From: Opitutus terrae PB90-1
GTDB lineage: Bacteria > Verrucomicrobiota > Verrucomicrobiia > Opitutales > Opitutaceae
NCBI RefSeq assembly: GCF_000019965.1
Contig: NC_010571.1
Location: forward strand, 5,031,001 to 5,095,000
DNA length: 64,000 nucleotides
Direction of reading: 5' to 3'
The notes below the pieces were generated by a model. The model made no database searches. It had not been told where the DNA came from and was given only the letters and a program-made list of their open reading frames with translations. The position numbers were made by a program, and so were the translations under genes. This document shows, in pieces, positions 7,502 through 14,348 of this stretch (positions are counted from its first letter, which is position 1; each line of letters starts with the position of its first letter).

Positions 7502-7636
7502 GGTTTTTCCGTCGTCCCATTTTGAGAGCTCAGGGCGGCCGGGCTGCACCCATGCCTACGCCAGACATCTGTCAGCCACCCGGTGTTCTTTTTCCGTGCC
7601 TTTTGCCCCAAACCGTGGTTCGCATCCCGCTCCGTC

Positions 7637-8497
7637 ATGCGCTACCACAAATATCACGCTCTCGGCAACGACTACATCGTCCTCGATCCGCGCGATTTCC
7701 CGTCGTGGCAGCCCGCGCCCACGATCGACCAGATCCGCGTGGTCTGTCATCGCAACTTCGGGGTCGGCTCCGACGGCATCCTGTGGGGCCCGTTGCCCTC
7801 CAAACAAAGCGAGTTCGGGCTGCGCATCTTCAATCCAGACGGTTCCGAGGCGGAAAAGTCCGGCAACGGGCTGCGAATCTTTTCCCGTTTTCTGTGGGAC
7901 CAGAAGCTCGTGCGCGCACCCGCCTTCACCGTCGAGACACCGGGCGGCAACGTGGAATCGGTCATCAAGGAAAACGGCCGGTTGATCACCGTGGCGATGG
8001 GCCGCGTCAGCTTCGACAGCGCGAAGATCCCGGTGAATCTCGCCGGCGCGGCCCGCGAGGTCATCAACGAGAAACTCACCGTGCTGGATCGCGAGTTCAC
8101 CTATTGCGCCGCCACGATCGGCAATCCGCATTGCGTGATTCCGCTCGCCGAGATCTCGCCCGAAATTGCGCATCGCTACGGTCCAGCCATCGAGACGCAT
8201 CCGAATTTCCCGCGCAAAACCAACGTCCAGTTTCTGCGCGTCCGTGATCGGCAGAATATCCAACTCGAGATCTGGGAACGCGGCGCTGGTTACACGCTCG
8301 CCTCGGGCAGTAGCTCGAGCGCCGCAGCCGCGGTGGCGCACCGGCTCGGATTGGTGGATCGCAACGTCACCGTCCACATGCCCGGGGGCACGATCGGCAT
8401 CGAGATCGGCGGCGATTTCTCGATCATGATGACCGGCACGGTGAACAAGGTGGCCGAGGGAACGATGCACCCCGAGTTGTTCGCGGTGAAGGTCTGA
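7637..8497 (+). CDS. dapF: DapF-family epimerase homologue with both catalytic cysteines replaced by serine
   Basis: The 286-residue length, the two-domain diaminopimelate epimerase fold signature and the start MRYHKYHALGNDYIVLD are typical of DapF, which converts LL- to meso-diaminopimelate for lysine and peptidoglycan. Substrate-ring residues are kept: Asn11, Asn66 in IFNPDGSEAEK, Asn163 in IGNPHC, Asn196, and Glu214-Arg215 in WERGAG. The two catalytic cysteines are not. The first (normally CGNG) is Ser75 in EKSGNGLRIF, and the second (normally ACGTG) is Ser223 in TLASGSSSSAAA. The codons are TCC (7859-7861) and TCG (8303-8305) and the frame is intact. The conserved Glu-Thr after GAG is Tyr-Thr. 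It may be a genuine DapF clade with a changed acid/base pair, a racemase for another amino acid, or a non-catalytic paralogue. Family assignment is secure; activity is not. Confidence 0.85.
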   Translation: MRYHKYHALGNDYIVLDPRDFPSWQPAPTIDQIRVVCHRNFGVGSDGILWGPLPSKQSEFGLRIFNPDGSEAEKSGNGLRIFSRFLWDQKLVRAPAFTVETPGGNVESVIKENGRLITVAMGRVSFDSAKIPVNLAGAAREVINEKLTVLDREFTYCAATIGNPHCVIPLAEISPEIAHRYGPAIETHPNFPRKTNVQFLRVRDRQNIQLEIWERGAGYTLASGSSSSAAAAVAHRLGLVDRNVTVHMPGGTIGIEIGGDFSIMMTGTVNKVAEGTMHPELFAVKV

Positions 8498-11205: not shown

Positions 11206-12699
11206 GTGACTGGCCGCCTCGCTGACCTCTTCCGCCTAGCTTGGGGACTGGTATATTGGAACGTCCGGAAAACGTGGTTCCAAGCGCGTCGCGGCCGTTC
11301 CCCCTGCCCGTGCCAGAGTCCCAGCGATTCGGGCCGCGCCTTCGAAACGCGCTGCGAAGCGTGCCTGAGTTGGGCGGACGCTGCGCGTTTCCGGCGCGTC
11401 TGCCCGTTGCTGGTGCCCACGCCCAACGGACTGCGTTGCTCGGTCGATACGCCGCAGGTGCGGCCGTTCTGGGGCCGGGCGTTGGCGCTGTACCTCGGCG
11501 CGGGATTGGCGATCTATCTGGCGGGCGCCTGCGCGCTGTTTGGGTTTTTGCGCACGGTCGGTTATCCCATCAGCATCGTGCACCTGGTGTGGCCGCCCTC
11601 CTGGCACCGGGTCGGCCAGGCCCGCGGCTCGTTCTTCTGGGGCCGCGCGCAGCAAGCCTTCGCGGCCGGCCGCATGAGCGAGGGCATGCTCTATCTCACC
11701 AACGCCCACGAGTTCGATCCCGACAACTATGCGATCGCCTTCACGCTCGCGCAGCGGCTGCAACTCACTCATCCGCTTCGCGCCGATGAGCTTTACCGCG
11801 AGTTGATCCACGACCACCCGGCCCAGCGCCCGCTCACTTATCAATTGTGGTTTCGCACCCGGCTCGCCCGCGGCGATTTCGCCGGCGTCGAAGAAATCGC
11901 CCGGTTGCGACTGCTCGAGGATCCGGACAACGCTTCGGTCTGGATGCGCGCGCTCGTGTTTGTCAGCCGGCAGACCGGCGAGCAGGCGACGCTGCGCCAG
12001 TTGCTCGCGTCCGAGCACGCCGCAGCGATCCCGTGGCGACCGCTCCTCGGCACCGAGCTCCTCCTTCGCGAAAACCGCGCCCGCGCCCGCATCGAGCTCA
12101 CCCGCCCCTGGCCCGACATTCCGCCTTACGGGCTCTACTACCAGATCGACGAGCGGATCGAGCTCGGTGACGTGATTGGCGCGGTCGATCTCCTGGAAGC
12201 AAACCGCCCGCGGCTCGATGACACCGCCATCGCCGCCCTGCTCCTTCATGCCTACGCGACCATGGGGGCGACCACGTCCCGCGACCGCCTCACCACATCC
12301 CTGCTCGCGCCCGCGCTCACGGCCCCGACGGTGAACCTGCTGGCGGCGCACCTGATCCGGCATCCCGATTCCGCCACGCTCGATCGACTGTTCACCAAAT
12401 TCGAGCACGCCAACCTGGCGCTCACCGACGCCACGTTGGAAAGCCACCTCGCACTCTTCTGCGCCATCGGCGTCGCCGGCGATTGGGCCAAATTGCAGAC
12501 GCTCGGCGCGAAAATTCGAAGCCAGATCGGCGGTCAGGCGGCGATGCTCGGCGTCGCCGAGGCCTTCTTCCGGCACCGCGGCGATGACGCCCCCGTCGCC
12601 CGGCTGCTGCCCATCCTCCCGATGTCGCTCGAGGTTCACTATGCGCTGCTCGAGCGTTACCCCGCGCCACGACCGAAGCCCGCGCGCTTTCTCCCATGA
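11206..12699 (+). CDS. Cys-rich membrane protein with TPR-like repeats, exosortase-linked
   Basis: This 497-residue protein starts at GTG 11206. The N-terminal 90 residues are basic and carry six cysteines (34, 36, 50, 53, 66, 78), including CPC and CEAC pairs resembling a small zinc ribbon. One transmembrane helix follows (about residues 91-115). The remaining 380 residues are α-helical and look like degenerate tetratricopeptide repeats, for example GRMSEGMLYLTNAHEFDPD. The stop overlaps the exosortase start (ATGA), so the two are translationally coupled. A paralogue with the same order of membrane helix and repeats is encoded at 44723-46645. It is likely a scaffold or polymer-processing partner of the exosortase; this is inferred from context. 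Confidence 0.7.
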   Translation: MTGRLADLFRLAWGLVYWNVRKTWFQARRGRSPCPCQSPSDSGRAFETRCEACLSWADAARFRRVCPLLVPTPNGLRCSVDTPQVRPFWGRALALYLGAGLAIYLAGACALFGFLRTVGYPISIVHLVWPPSWHRVGQARGSFFWGRAQQAFAAGRMSEGMLYLTNAHEFDPDNYAIAFTLAQRLQLTHPLRADELYRELIHDHPAQRPLTYQLWFRTRLARGDFAGVEEIARLRLLEDPDNASVWMRALVFVSRQTGEQATLRQLLASEHAAAIPWRPLLGTELLLRENRARARIELTRPWPDIPPYGLYYQIDERIELGDVIGAVDLLEANRPRLDDTAIAALLLHAYATMGATTSRDRLTTSLLAPALTAPTVNLLAAHLIRHPDSATLDRLFTKFEHANLALTDATLESHLALFCAIGVAGDWAKLQTLGAKIRSQIGGQAAMLGVAEAFFRHRGDDAPVARLLPILPMSLEVHYALLERYPAPRPKPARFLP

Positions 12700-14348
12700 G
12701 TCGCCTGCTCCAGCTCGACGCTCCCAACGCTGCAGGCCCGCGGCCGCTCACCTCCGCTCCGAGCTTGGCGAAAATCAACCTGCTGCTGCTCGCCGGTTTT
12801 TTCGTCGCGCTGGTCGCCTTGCTCTGGCCGCACTGGCGAGACAACGCGGATCTCTCCCACGGGTTCGTCACACCCGTCCTTTTTCTCCTGCTGCTCCACG
12901 AAGCGCGTCGCGGCCCCCAACGTTATCTTCGCTGCACCGCCGGACTCCGGGCGGTGCAATCCACCCTGCTCGCGCTCGCCCTCCTGCTGGTCTGCGCCAG
13001 CGGACTCTACGCCGCCACGCTCGACTGGACGCACTCCCTCGTGGCGTTCGTTCTCACCGGCGCATTCGTGCTGCTGCTCGGTGCCAGCCTGTTGGGGTTT
13101 GCTGCGGATTCGGCACGCATCATCCCCTTCAACTGGACCGCGGTGGTCGCGATCGCCGTGTGGCTGCTGAGTGCGCCCATCCCGCCCGGAACCTACCTGC
13201 GGCTCATGCTGGCCCTGCAGCTCACCGTCACCGAGAACGTGCTGCGTGCCCTGCACCTGCTTGGAATCGCCGCCCAGCGGCATGGCAATGTGATTGAACT
13301 CGCCACCGCGACGGTCGGCGTCGAGGAGGCCTGCAGCGGGATCCGCAGCCTGATCTCCTGCATTTTCGCCGGACTCTTTTTCTCCGCCACGCTGGTCCGC
13401 CGACCTTGGGCGCGAGCGTTGATCATCGCGCTCGCCGCTCCGCTCGCGATCGCGATGAATTTCCTGCGCTCGCTCATCCTGACCCTGCTCGCCAATCACG
13501 GCGCCGACATTTCCGGACTCTGGCACGACCTGACCGGTTTTGCCGTGCTCGGCGTAACCGCGGGATTGCTGGCGGCAATCGCGCTCGCGCTCGAACGCCG
13601 CTCACCGCCAGCCGCCACGCCGACGGCCACCACGGAGGCCGCAACCGGATACGTCCGGCCAGCAGGCTACCGTTCCTCGCTCGAAAAACTGCAGCTCCCG
13701 GTCACCGTCGCCGGCGCGATCACCGTCGCGCTCGCGCTTTTTTTCGTGGTCAACACGCGTCCGTCCGCGCGCCAGAACCTGCCGCCACCCGACCTCCTCG
13801 CCGTTCTCCCGGGCGAGAGCGGTGGATGGAACGTTCAGACCGCGGACGATCTTTACCAGTTCACTGCGACGCTGCAAACCGAGCATCTGGCGCAACGCAC
13901 CTACACGCGGGTTCGCAACGACCAGCTCGAGCAGATCACCGTGTATCTCGCGTACTGGCCGGCCGGGCAGGCTCCCGTCAGCCTCGTCGCGTCGCATACA
14001 CCCGACGCGTGCTGGCCGGGCAGCGGCTGGGTGCCGGTTCCGCTCGCGCCCGCCGCCACTCTGATCTCGCTGCCCGGCCGCCCGCTTGCGCAGCCCGAAG
14101 CGCGGCTTTTTCTCAGCGGCCAGCGTCCGCAATACGTCTGGTTCTGGCATCTCTACGATGGCCGGCCGATCGCGCATCGCGAACCTCGTTCGCCGCTCGC
14201 GCTGCTCAAGCTCGCGTCGAAGTACGGCTTCTCGCACAACGGCGACCAACTCTTCGTCCGTGTTTCCAGCAATCGTCCGTGGCCCGAATTTTCCGGCGAG
14301 CCGCTGATCGCCCAGTTGTTCGAGCGGCTCCAGCCGTTCGGGCTGTAG
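12696..14348 (+). CDS. xrt: Exosortase fused to an EpsI (DUF3485) domain
   Basis: This 550-residue protein is a membrane transpeptidase that cleaves PEP-CTERM sorting signals and hands proteins on to the envelope. About eight hydrophobic helices span residues 25-300. The exosortase triad is visible: Cys213 in VEEACSGIRSLISC, Arg258 in AMNFLRSLIL and His277 in GLWHDLTGF. After a Pro/Thr linker and one more helix (about 335-353), the last 185 residues form a soluble EpsI-type domain (NLPPPDLLAVLPGESGGW, TYTRVRNDQLEQITVYLAYW), as seen in exopolysaccharide loci. A PEP-CTERM substrate is encoded at 23317-24003. Its start overlaps the stop of the upstream membrane protein. Confidence 0.92.
   Translation: MSRLLQLDAPNAAGPRPLTSAPSLAKINLLLLAGFFVALVALLWPHWRDNADLSHGFVTPVLFLLLLHEARRGPQRYLRCTAGLRAVQSTLLALALLLVCASGLYAATLDWTHSLVAFVLTGAFVLLLGASLLGFAADSARIIPFNWTAVVAIAVWLLSAPIPPGTYLRLMLALQLTVTENVLRALHLLGIAAQRHGNVIELATATVGVEEACSGIRSLISCIFAGLFFSATLVRRPWARALIIALAAPLAIAMNFLRSLILTLLANHGADISGLWHDLTGFAVLGVTAGLLAAIALALERRSPPAATPTATTEAATGYVRPAGYRSSLEKLQLPVTVAGAITVALALFFVVNTRPSARQNLPPPDLLAVLPGESGGWNVQTADDLYQFTATLQTEHLAQRTYTRVRNDQLEQITVYLAYWPAGQAPVSLVASHTPDACWPGSGWVPVPLAPAATLISLPGRPLAQPEARLFLSGQRPQYVWFWHLYDGRPIAHREPRSPLALLKLASKYGFSHNGDQLFVRVSSNRPWPEFSGEPLIAQLFERLQPFGL

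Follow-up and report, generated by a model that had tools for sequence, protein, structure and literature searches.

The diaminopimelate epimerase-like gene (dapF) of Opitutus terrae PB90-1 encodes a protein with serine at both places where known DapF enzymes carry a catalytic cysteine, and the same Ser/Ser state is found in most Opitutales genomes in which the two positions were read, usually as the sole copy. We consider it somewhat better than an even chance, at about 55%, that this protein is a working diaminopimelate (DAP) epimerase that has the DapF fold and uses two serines in place of the thiolate/thiol pair. We infer its activity, its substrate and the role of the serines as acid and base from sequence and from the pattern of genes across genomes. 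No natural Ser/Ser DapF was found in searches of an open-access library for DapF catalytic residues and for DapF in the phylum.

The dapF gene and its protein

The gene lies at positions 7637–8497 (+) of the window, the whole stretch of 64,000 nucleotides that was analysed, within a genome of one contig (5,957,605 bases). The frame is open and clean over its full length of 286 amino acids, as originally predicted. Its chosen start, the ATG at 7637, is in line with the starts of relatives; an in-frame GTG is located upstream at 7583. The protein scores 233.2 bits against the NCBIfam DapF equivalog TIGR00652 (curated cut-off 114.65), is matched by PF01678 in two stretches, and has the DapF enzymes of Anabaena, Pseudomonas and Arabidopsis as its closest solved relatives. 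The predicted structure (pLDDT 92.3) has the two-domain DapF fold with helices at residues 76–88 and 224–236, and its best match in the PDB is 8qzy (TM 0.88). Fold, length, DAP-contact residues, a score over the cut-off and the company of DapL, LysA and a DAP-adding MurE in the genome are shared with DapF.

This is the only PF01678 gene in the single-contig genome. DapF searches of the genome returned no second DapF, and a hidden second copy was rejected. A sequencing error or a pseudogene is ruled out by conservation among relatives and by a dN/dS of 0.07–0.17 between the gene and 12 relatives; the original prediction had judged an error unlikely, and the same state recurs in many separate assemblies. 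The DNA also bears out that the Ser223 codon (TCG) is two changes from TGC; the Ser75 codon (TCC) is one change away. No dap, lys or mur gene was recognised by Pfam beside dapF among 14 window frames, which comprised ten frames including dapF (some probably non-coding) and then four more. Elsewhere in the window, positions 12696–14348 encode an exosortase fused to an EpsI-like C-terminal part (PF09721 plus PF11984/DUF3485).

Catalytic positions and substrate pocket

Ser75 (7859–7861, +) aligns with the CGN motif of solved DapF at the first catalytic cysteine, and Ser223 (8303–8305, +) aligns with the ACG motif at the second, so that neither catalytic cysteine of DapF is present. The residues predicted by alignment to bind both ends of DAP are retained, all encoded on the same strand (+): Asn11 (7667–7669; Asn13 in Anabaena DapF) as a proximal amino contact, Asn66 (7832–7834; Asn66) as a distal contact, Asn163 (8123–8125; Asn164) and Asn196 (8222–8224; Asn197) as distal carboxylate contacts, and Glu214-Arg215 (8276–8281; Glu215-Arg216) as distal amino and carboxylate contacts. 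DNA and alignment thus agree with the original prediction of two serines at the thiol positions within a preserved DAP-contact set. In Anabaena DapF, Asn66, Asn164, Asn197, Glu215 and Arg216 hold the distal end of the DAP analogue, Gly76, Asn77, Gly225 and Thr226 hold the proximal carboxylate, and each sulfur is close to an amide at the N-end of a helix, that of Gly76 or Gly227 (PMC12039745).

Residue conservation was counted in 190 Ser/Ser and 67 Cys/Cys rows, with duplicates included and plasmid and viral-collection rows left out. N66, N163, N196, E214, R215, G76, N77 and G224 occur in 190/190 Ser/Ser rows and N11 in 188/190 (the other two are gaps), while position 225 is Ser or Thr in all 190. 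Ser226 (8312–8314, +), at +3 from Ser223, is Ser in 189/190 Ser/Ser rows and Gly in 67/67 Cys/Cys rows; its coupling with the Ser/Ser state is only partial, as Gly is found there in the Ser/Ser homologues L288, L289 and L290 from plasmids and a viral collection. Tyr219 (8291–8293, +) is present in 189/190 Ser/Ser rows, against Glu, Val or Ile (mostly Glu) in the 67 Cys/Cys rows. Lys74 (7856–7858, +), which adjoins Ser75, is present in 183/190 Ser/Ser rows, with Ile or Val in the other seven, against Met in 65/67 Cys/Cys rows. Cys166 is found in 174/190 Ser/Ser rows (Val or Ala in the other 16) and also in 6/67 Cys/Cys rows and in Arabidopsis DapF. Position 81 is Ile in the window protein instead of the usual Cys of DapF. 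The PROSITE DapF signature, as quoted in PMC8225329, fits N66–R80 by eye except for Ser in place of Cys at position 75, and so does not match in full.

Distribution and phylogeny

A match to the window protein was found in 110 of the 132 genomes of the Opitutales sample. Both positions were read in 105 of these, giving 90 Ser/Ser, 13 Cys/Cys and 2 Ser/Cys genomes; G015, G037, G088, G089 and G097 are left out of the 105, and G064 is counted as Ser/Ser though it also has a Cys/Cys copy. In a search of the phylum, 85 further genes were read among the matches listed (43 Ser/Ser, many of them from Opitutaceae, and 42 Cys/Cys). Two genomes with both types, G347 and G379, are estimated to be 5% and 9% contaminated. 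Altogether 245 loci were read: 185 Ser/Ser (181 distinct sequences, with some organisms reached by two routes), 56 Cys/Cys, 2 Ser/Cys and 2 that were too short. At 70% identity, these gave 64 Ser/Ser and 31 Cys/Cys clusters.

Phylogenetic trees were built without the two catalytic stretches and are unrooted. A quick tree of 72 rows contains a branch that parts Cys/Cys from Ser/Ser plus Ser/Cys (support 99), and the same branch separates Cys/Cys from all others in a careful tree of 44 rows (support 100/100). A Ser/Ser clade, whose existence the original prediction had left to a tree, is thus present, with the Cys/Cys rows on the other side of the 100/100 branch. The two Ser/Cys sequences of family f28 group within the Ser/Ser side on long, flagged branches, and their placement is unsure. 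Ser/Cys DapF genes L168 and L169 belong to reduced genomes (G125 and G034) and may represent a step between the two states.

Copy number was assessed with TIGR00652 in 27 genomes, of which 18 have one gene, G064 has two and eight have none. G064 is also the only Ser/Ser genome of the order sample with a Cys/Cys copy. Both types occur in closely related genomes: a single genus of family f48 includes G151, whose one gene is Ser/Ser, and G212, G292 and G426, each with one gene that is Cys/Cys; in f55, G393 is Ser/Ser and G184 is Cys/Cys; and in genus g74, which belongs to the window's family, Cys/Cys is the state of G325, G388 and G400. Because the two types replace each other as sole copies, they would most simply be isofunctional.

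Routes to meso-DAP in O. terrae and the order

The O. terrae genome encodes DapL (580 bits), LysA (449 bits) and a DAP-adding MurE (NF001126, 539.5 bits against a cut-off of 373), and judged from these three the company of a lysine/DAP route is in place. MurI is also encoded (166 bits). In addition, the genome encodes a diaminopimelate dehydrogenase (312 bits against a cut-off of 180.6; closest PDB entry 3wb9, 421 bits), so that O. terrae could make meso-DAP with or without DapF. The original argument that meso-DAP would be unexplained in the absence of a second dapF therefore fails for this genome. It holds for the clade.

For the order, 88 of the 132 Opitutales genomes were treated as large and near-complete (at least 1.5 Mb and at least 90% completeness). 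Among these, DapF occurs alone in 76, with the dehydrogenase in 5, and is absent in 6 genomes with the dehydrogenase and in 1 with neither (Fisher p 5.7e-6, which overstates independence since the genomes are related). Across all 132 genomes, small and incomplete ones included, the corresponding counts are 104, 6, 6 and 16 (p 0.005). Of the 81 large genomes with DapF, 71 have the non-Cys type, as judged by reading in 69 and by identity in G037 and G097; the dehydrogenase is missing from 66 of the 71. Conversely, six of the seven large genomes without DapF have the dehydrogenase, DapF absence being judged by the DapF profile for five and by the window protein only for G115. DapL over the cut-off and a LysA homologue, mostly below the curated LysA cut-off, accompany DapF in 27 of the 66; these include G097, assigned by identity, and G064, with its additional Cys copy. 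Six of the 27, all from the window's family (G013, G050, G066, G080, G102 and G114; 99–100% complete), have DapL and LysA over the cut-off, one Ser/Ser DapF each and no dehydrogenase match.

The sole large genome with neither enzyme, G081 (2.3 Mb, single contig), gave no candidates in DapF, DapL, LysA or D-aminotransferase searches, and its sequence was probably not readable. Among the 132 genomes, LysA scores above the cut-off are confined to 9 of the 10 sampled from the window's family and to five from f24. Many of the remaining genomes match LysA below the cut-off, a pattern that suggests a second, divergent type of DAP decarboxylase. The MurI and dehydrogenase genes are 162 bp apart in G053 (C18:63727-65633) and G103 (C10:28302-30208), where the pair resembles one cassette replacing the work of DapF; in G038 and G082 they are on different contigs.

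In a second set of 48 hand-chosen genomes, the dehydrogenase was over the cut-off in 0/19 with a Ser/Ser DapF, in 0/6 with Cys/Cys (f1 and f48) and in 12/15 without a DapF match. Outside the order, all eight genomes of family f42 that keep DapF also have the dehydrogenase, so the either/or pattern is not general. Two other f42 genomes (G216 and G263) have neither DapF, judged by the window protein alone, nor the dehydrogenase, and no match for either was found in G384 of the window's family (97% complete).

Ser/Ser homologues beyond the phylum and related enzymes

The Ser/Ser state extends beyond one order. The window protein matches 118 plasmid records; of six read, two are Ser/Ser and four Cys/Cys. 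Plasmid Ser/Ser dapF homologues of Agrobacterium vitis and Streptomyces share a common cluster (L291:6177-8849 and L292:6308-8936), in which dapF lies with an iron-containing redox enzyme (PF14518) and a 2OG-Fe dioxygenase (PF10014), and a molybdopterin oxidoreductase, an aldo/keto reductase and an EamA transporter are nearby. This cluster looks like one for amino acid tailoring, not lysine making. In the trees, the Agrobacterium vitis and Streptomyces homologues fall inside the Ser/Ser side beside G230, on long branches. A further Ser/Ser dapF (45% identity) is carried by an IMG/VR contig (L290:38-2825), where the neighbours resemble, by eye, the end of a recombinase and a truncated gene for a sporulation sigma factor; the contig is perhaps an integrated element of a Bacillota genome. 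Some Ser/Ser members probably serve other reactions.

Among known enzymes, PhzF shares the fold of the window protein (Foldseek E 3e-15), with 14% identity in that match, and uses carboxylate residues. HisR, PddB and O-ureidoserine racemase are DapF-fold racemases of other amino acids, the last matching the window protein at 129 bits. Unlike the window protein, HisR and PddB use a Cys pair, and Cys-to-Ser replacement slows HisR and nearly abolishes PddB activity. Ser-containing members of the proline racemase superfamily resemble the window protein in their DapF-like fold and natural Ser at the first catalytic position. B9JQV3 (4HypE, Ser93/Cys236) is a hydroxyproline epimerase and B9K4G4 (t3HypD, Ser90/Thr256), a member without a catalytic Cys, is a dehydratase whose Thr orientation is called non-catalytic, the Ser of these enzymes being bound to an Asn at +3 (PMC4113996). 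However, these enzymes belong to a different Pfam family and act on different substrates: the window protein matched no Pfam family but PF01678 (E 0.001), and in place of the Asn it has Gly78 at +3 from the first Ser and Ser226 at +3 from the second. The Ser-containing members offer a partial precedent for a Ser/Ser DapF.

Proposed mechanism and alternative explanations

In the favoured mechanism, LL-DAP would be bound as in DapF, with its distal end held by Asn66, Asn163, Asn196, Glu214 and Arg215 and its proximal carboxylate bound by the main chain of Gly76/Asn77 and Gly224/Ser225. The domains would close, and Ser75 and Ser223, both located where a central helix has its N-end, would act on opposite faces of the alpha carbon, one removing a proton and the other supplying one, to yield meso-DAP. 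Activation of the serines may come from the helix N-ends and from nearby hydroxyls, for example that of Ser226; among the sequence changes, Ser226, Tyr219 and Lys74 are the likeliest to tune them.

Several observations were counted against this mechanism. As an acid, serine is much weaker than cysteine. Enzymes engineered from Cys to Ser have almost no activity: PddB C101S and C233S retain <0.1% activity, and the same kind of trace activity is reported for Cys-to-Ser DapF of Mycobacterium tuberculosis, according to PMC8225329. The dehydrogenase of O. terrae could make meso-DAP without DapF, f42 genomes have both enzymes, G384 has neither, no lysine gene was recognised beside dapF, and the distant plasmid homologues sit in iron-oxygenase clusters, not lysine clusters. 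Cell-wall chemistry was weighed in the same direction: according to PMC5303756, O. terrae hydrolysates contain a low 4 nmol/mg DAP and 11 nmol/mg ornithine, and three related Lacunisphaera strains gave no DL-DAP by TLC, with DAP seen by GC/MS; DapF is listed for strain IG16b.

An enzyme of the DapF fold acting on another amino acid, or catalysing a different reaction (epimerisation or beta-elimination) on a substrate that resembles DAP, with meso-DAP coming from elsewhere, would accommodate the excess of ornithine over DAP (PMC5303756), the plasmid homologues adjoining a haem-oxygenase-like iron enzyme and a 2OG-Fe dioxygenase, and the dehydratase activity of the Ser90/Thr256 protein (PMC4113996). 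It is nevertheless unlikely, given that no Ser/Ser row of the phylum departs from the distal DAP-binding set, that one type takes the place of the other, Ser or Cys, among related genomes, and that the dehydrogenase is missing from 66 large genomes with a non-Cys DapF and present in six of the seven without DapF. Loss of catalysis in favour of a binding role, which the original prediction had entertained for a paralogue, would suit the change of both catalytic residues and the near inactivity of Cys-to-Ser PddB (PMC8225329). We regard this as very improbable, and less likely than had been supposed: the gene is usually the sole copy (only G064 among the Ser/Ser genomes of the order showed a Cys/Cys copy too), it is under strong purifying selection with an invariant substrate pocket, and relatives have a Cys/Cys DapF or the dehydrogenase instead.

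A DAP epimerase whose base or acid is a residue other than the two serines would draw on Tyr219, Lys74 or Cys166, all frequent in Ser/Ser rows, the first two occurring in 0/67 Cys/Cys rows. Replacement of Lys74 by Ile or Val and of Cys166 by Val or Ala in some Ser/Ser rows, together with the occurrence of Cys166 in Cys/Cys DapF, makes this quite improbable. The protein might instead have the dual role suggested for DapF of Chlamydia, supplying D-glutamate as well as meso-DAP; PMC5885031 proposes such use of DapF for PVC bacteria lacking MurI. This would fit the absence of a MurI match in 117/132 genomes of the order and the presence of both MurI and the dehydrogenase in four genomes without DapF (G038, G053, G082 and G103). 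We think a dual role improbable, since O. terrae itself has MurI, two genomes without DapF (G016 and G115) have the dehydrogenase and no MurI match, aminotransferase homologues that might make D-Glu are common (TIGR01121 matches 104/132, 3 over the cut-off), and the protein scores 53.5 bits against the 350 bits required by the bifunctional DapF/glutamate racemase profile NF038284.

Returning to a working Ser/Ser DAP epimerase, its history may be sketched tentatively, at slightly less than even odds. The Ser/Ser pair would have arisen once, spread between families by replacing the Cys/Cys gene and perhaps regained the second Cys in a single reduced lineage. Most of the order and scattered lineages beyond it would then make meso-DAP by a cofactor-free, thiol-free epimerase, which may also supply D-glutamate where MurI is missing.

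Implications

A thiolate/thiol pair is the accepted means by which cofactor-free racemases remove a proton with a pKa of about 29. If the proposed reading is true, 1,1-proton transfer at the unactivated alpha carbon of an amino acid needs no thiols, and a natural Ser/Ser enzyme with the same pocket would be at hand for testing what share of the rate the thiols and the pocket each contribute. It would also be relevant to the cell wall of subdivision 4 Verrucomicrobia, which is under debate, with its low DAP and its ornithine. Inhibitors directed at the cysteines of DapF, and annotation rules that rely on them, would overlook a large group of enzymes. The occurrence of the Ser/Ser state in a large bacterial group, often as the sole copy, questions the textbook two-cysteine account of DapF.
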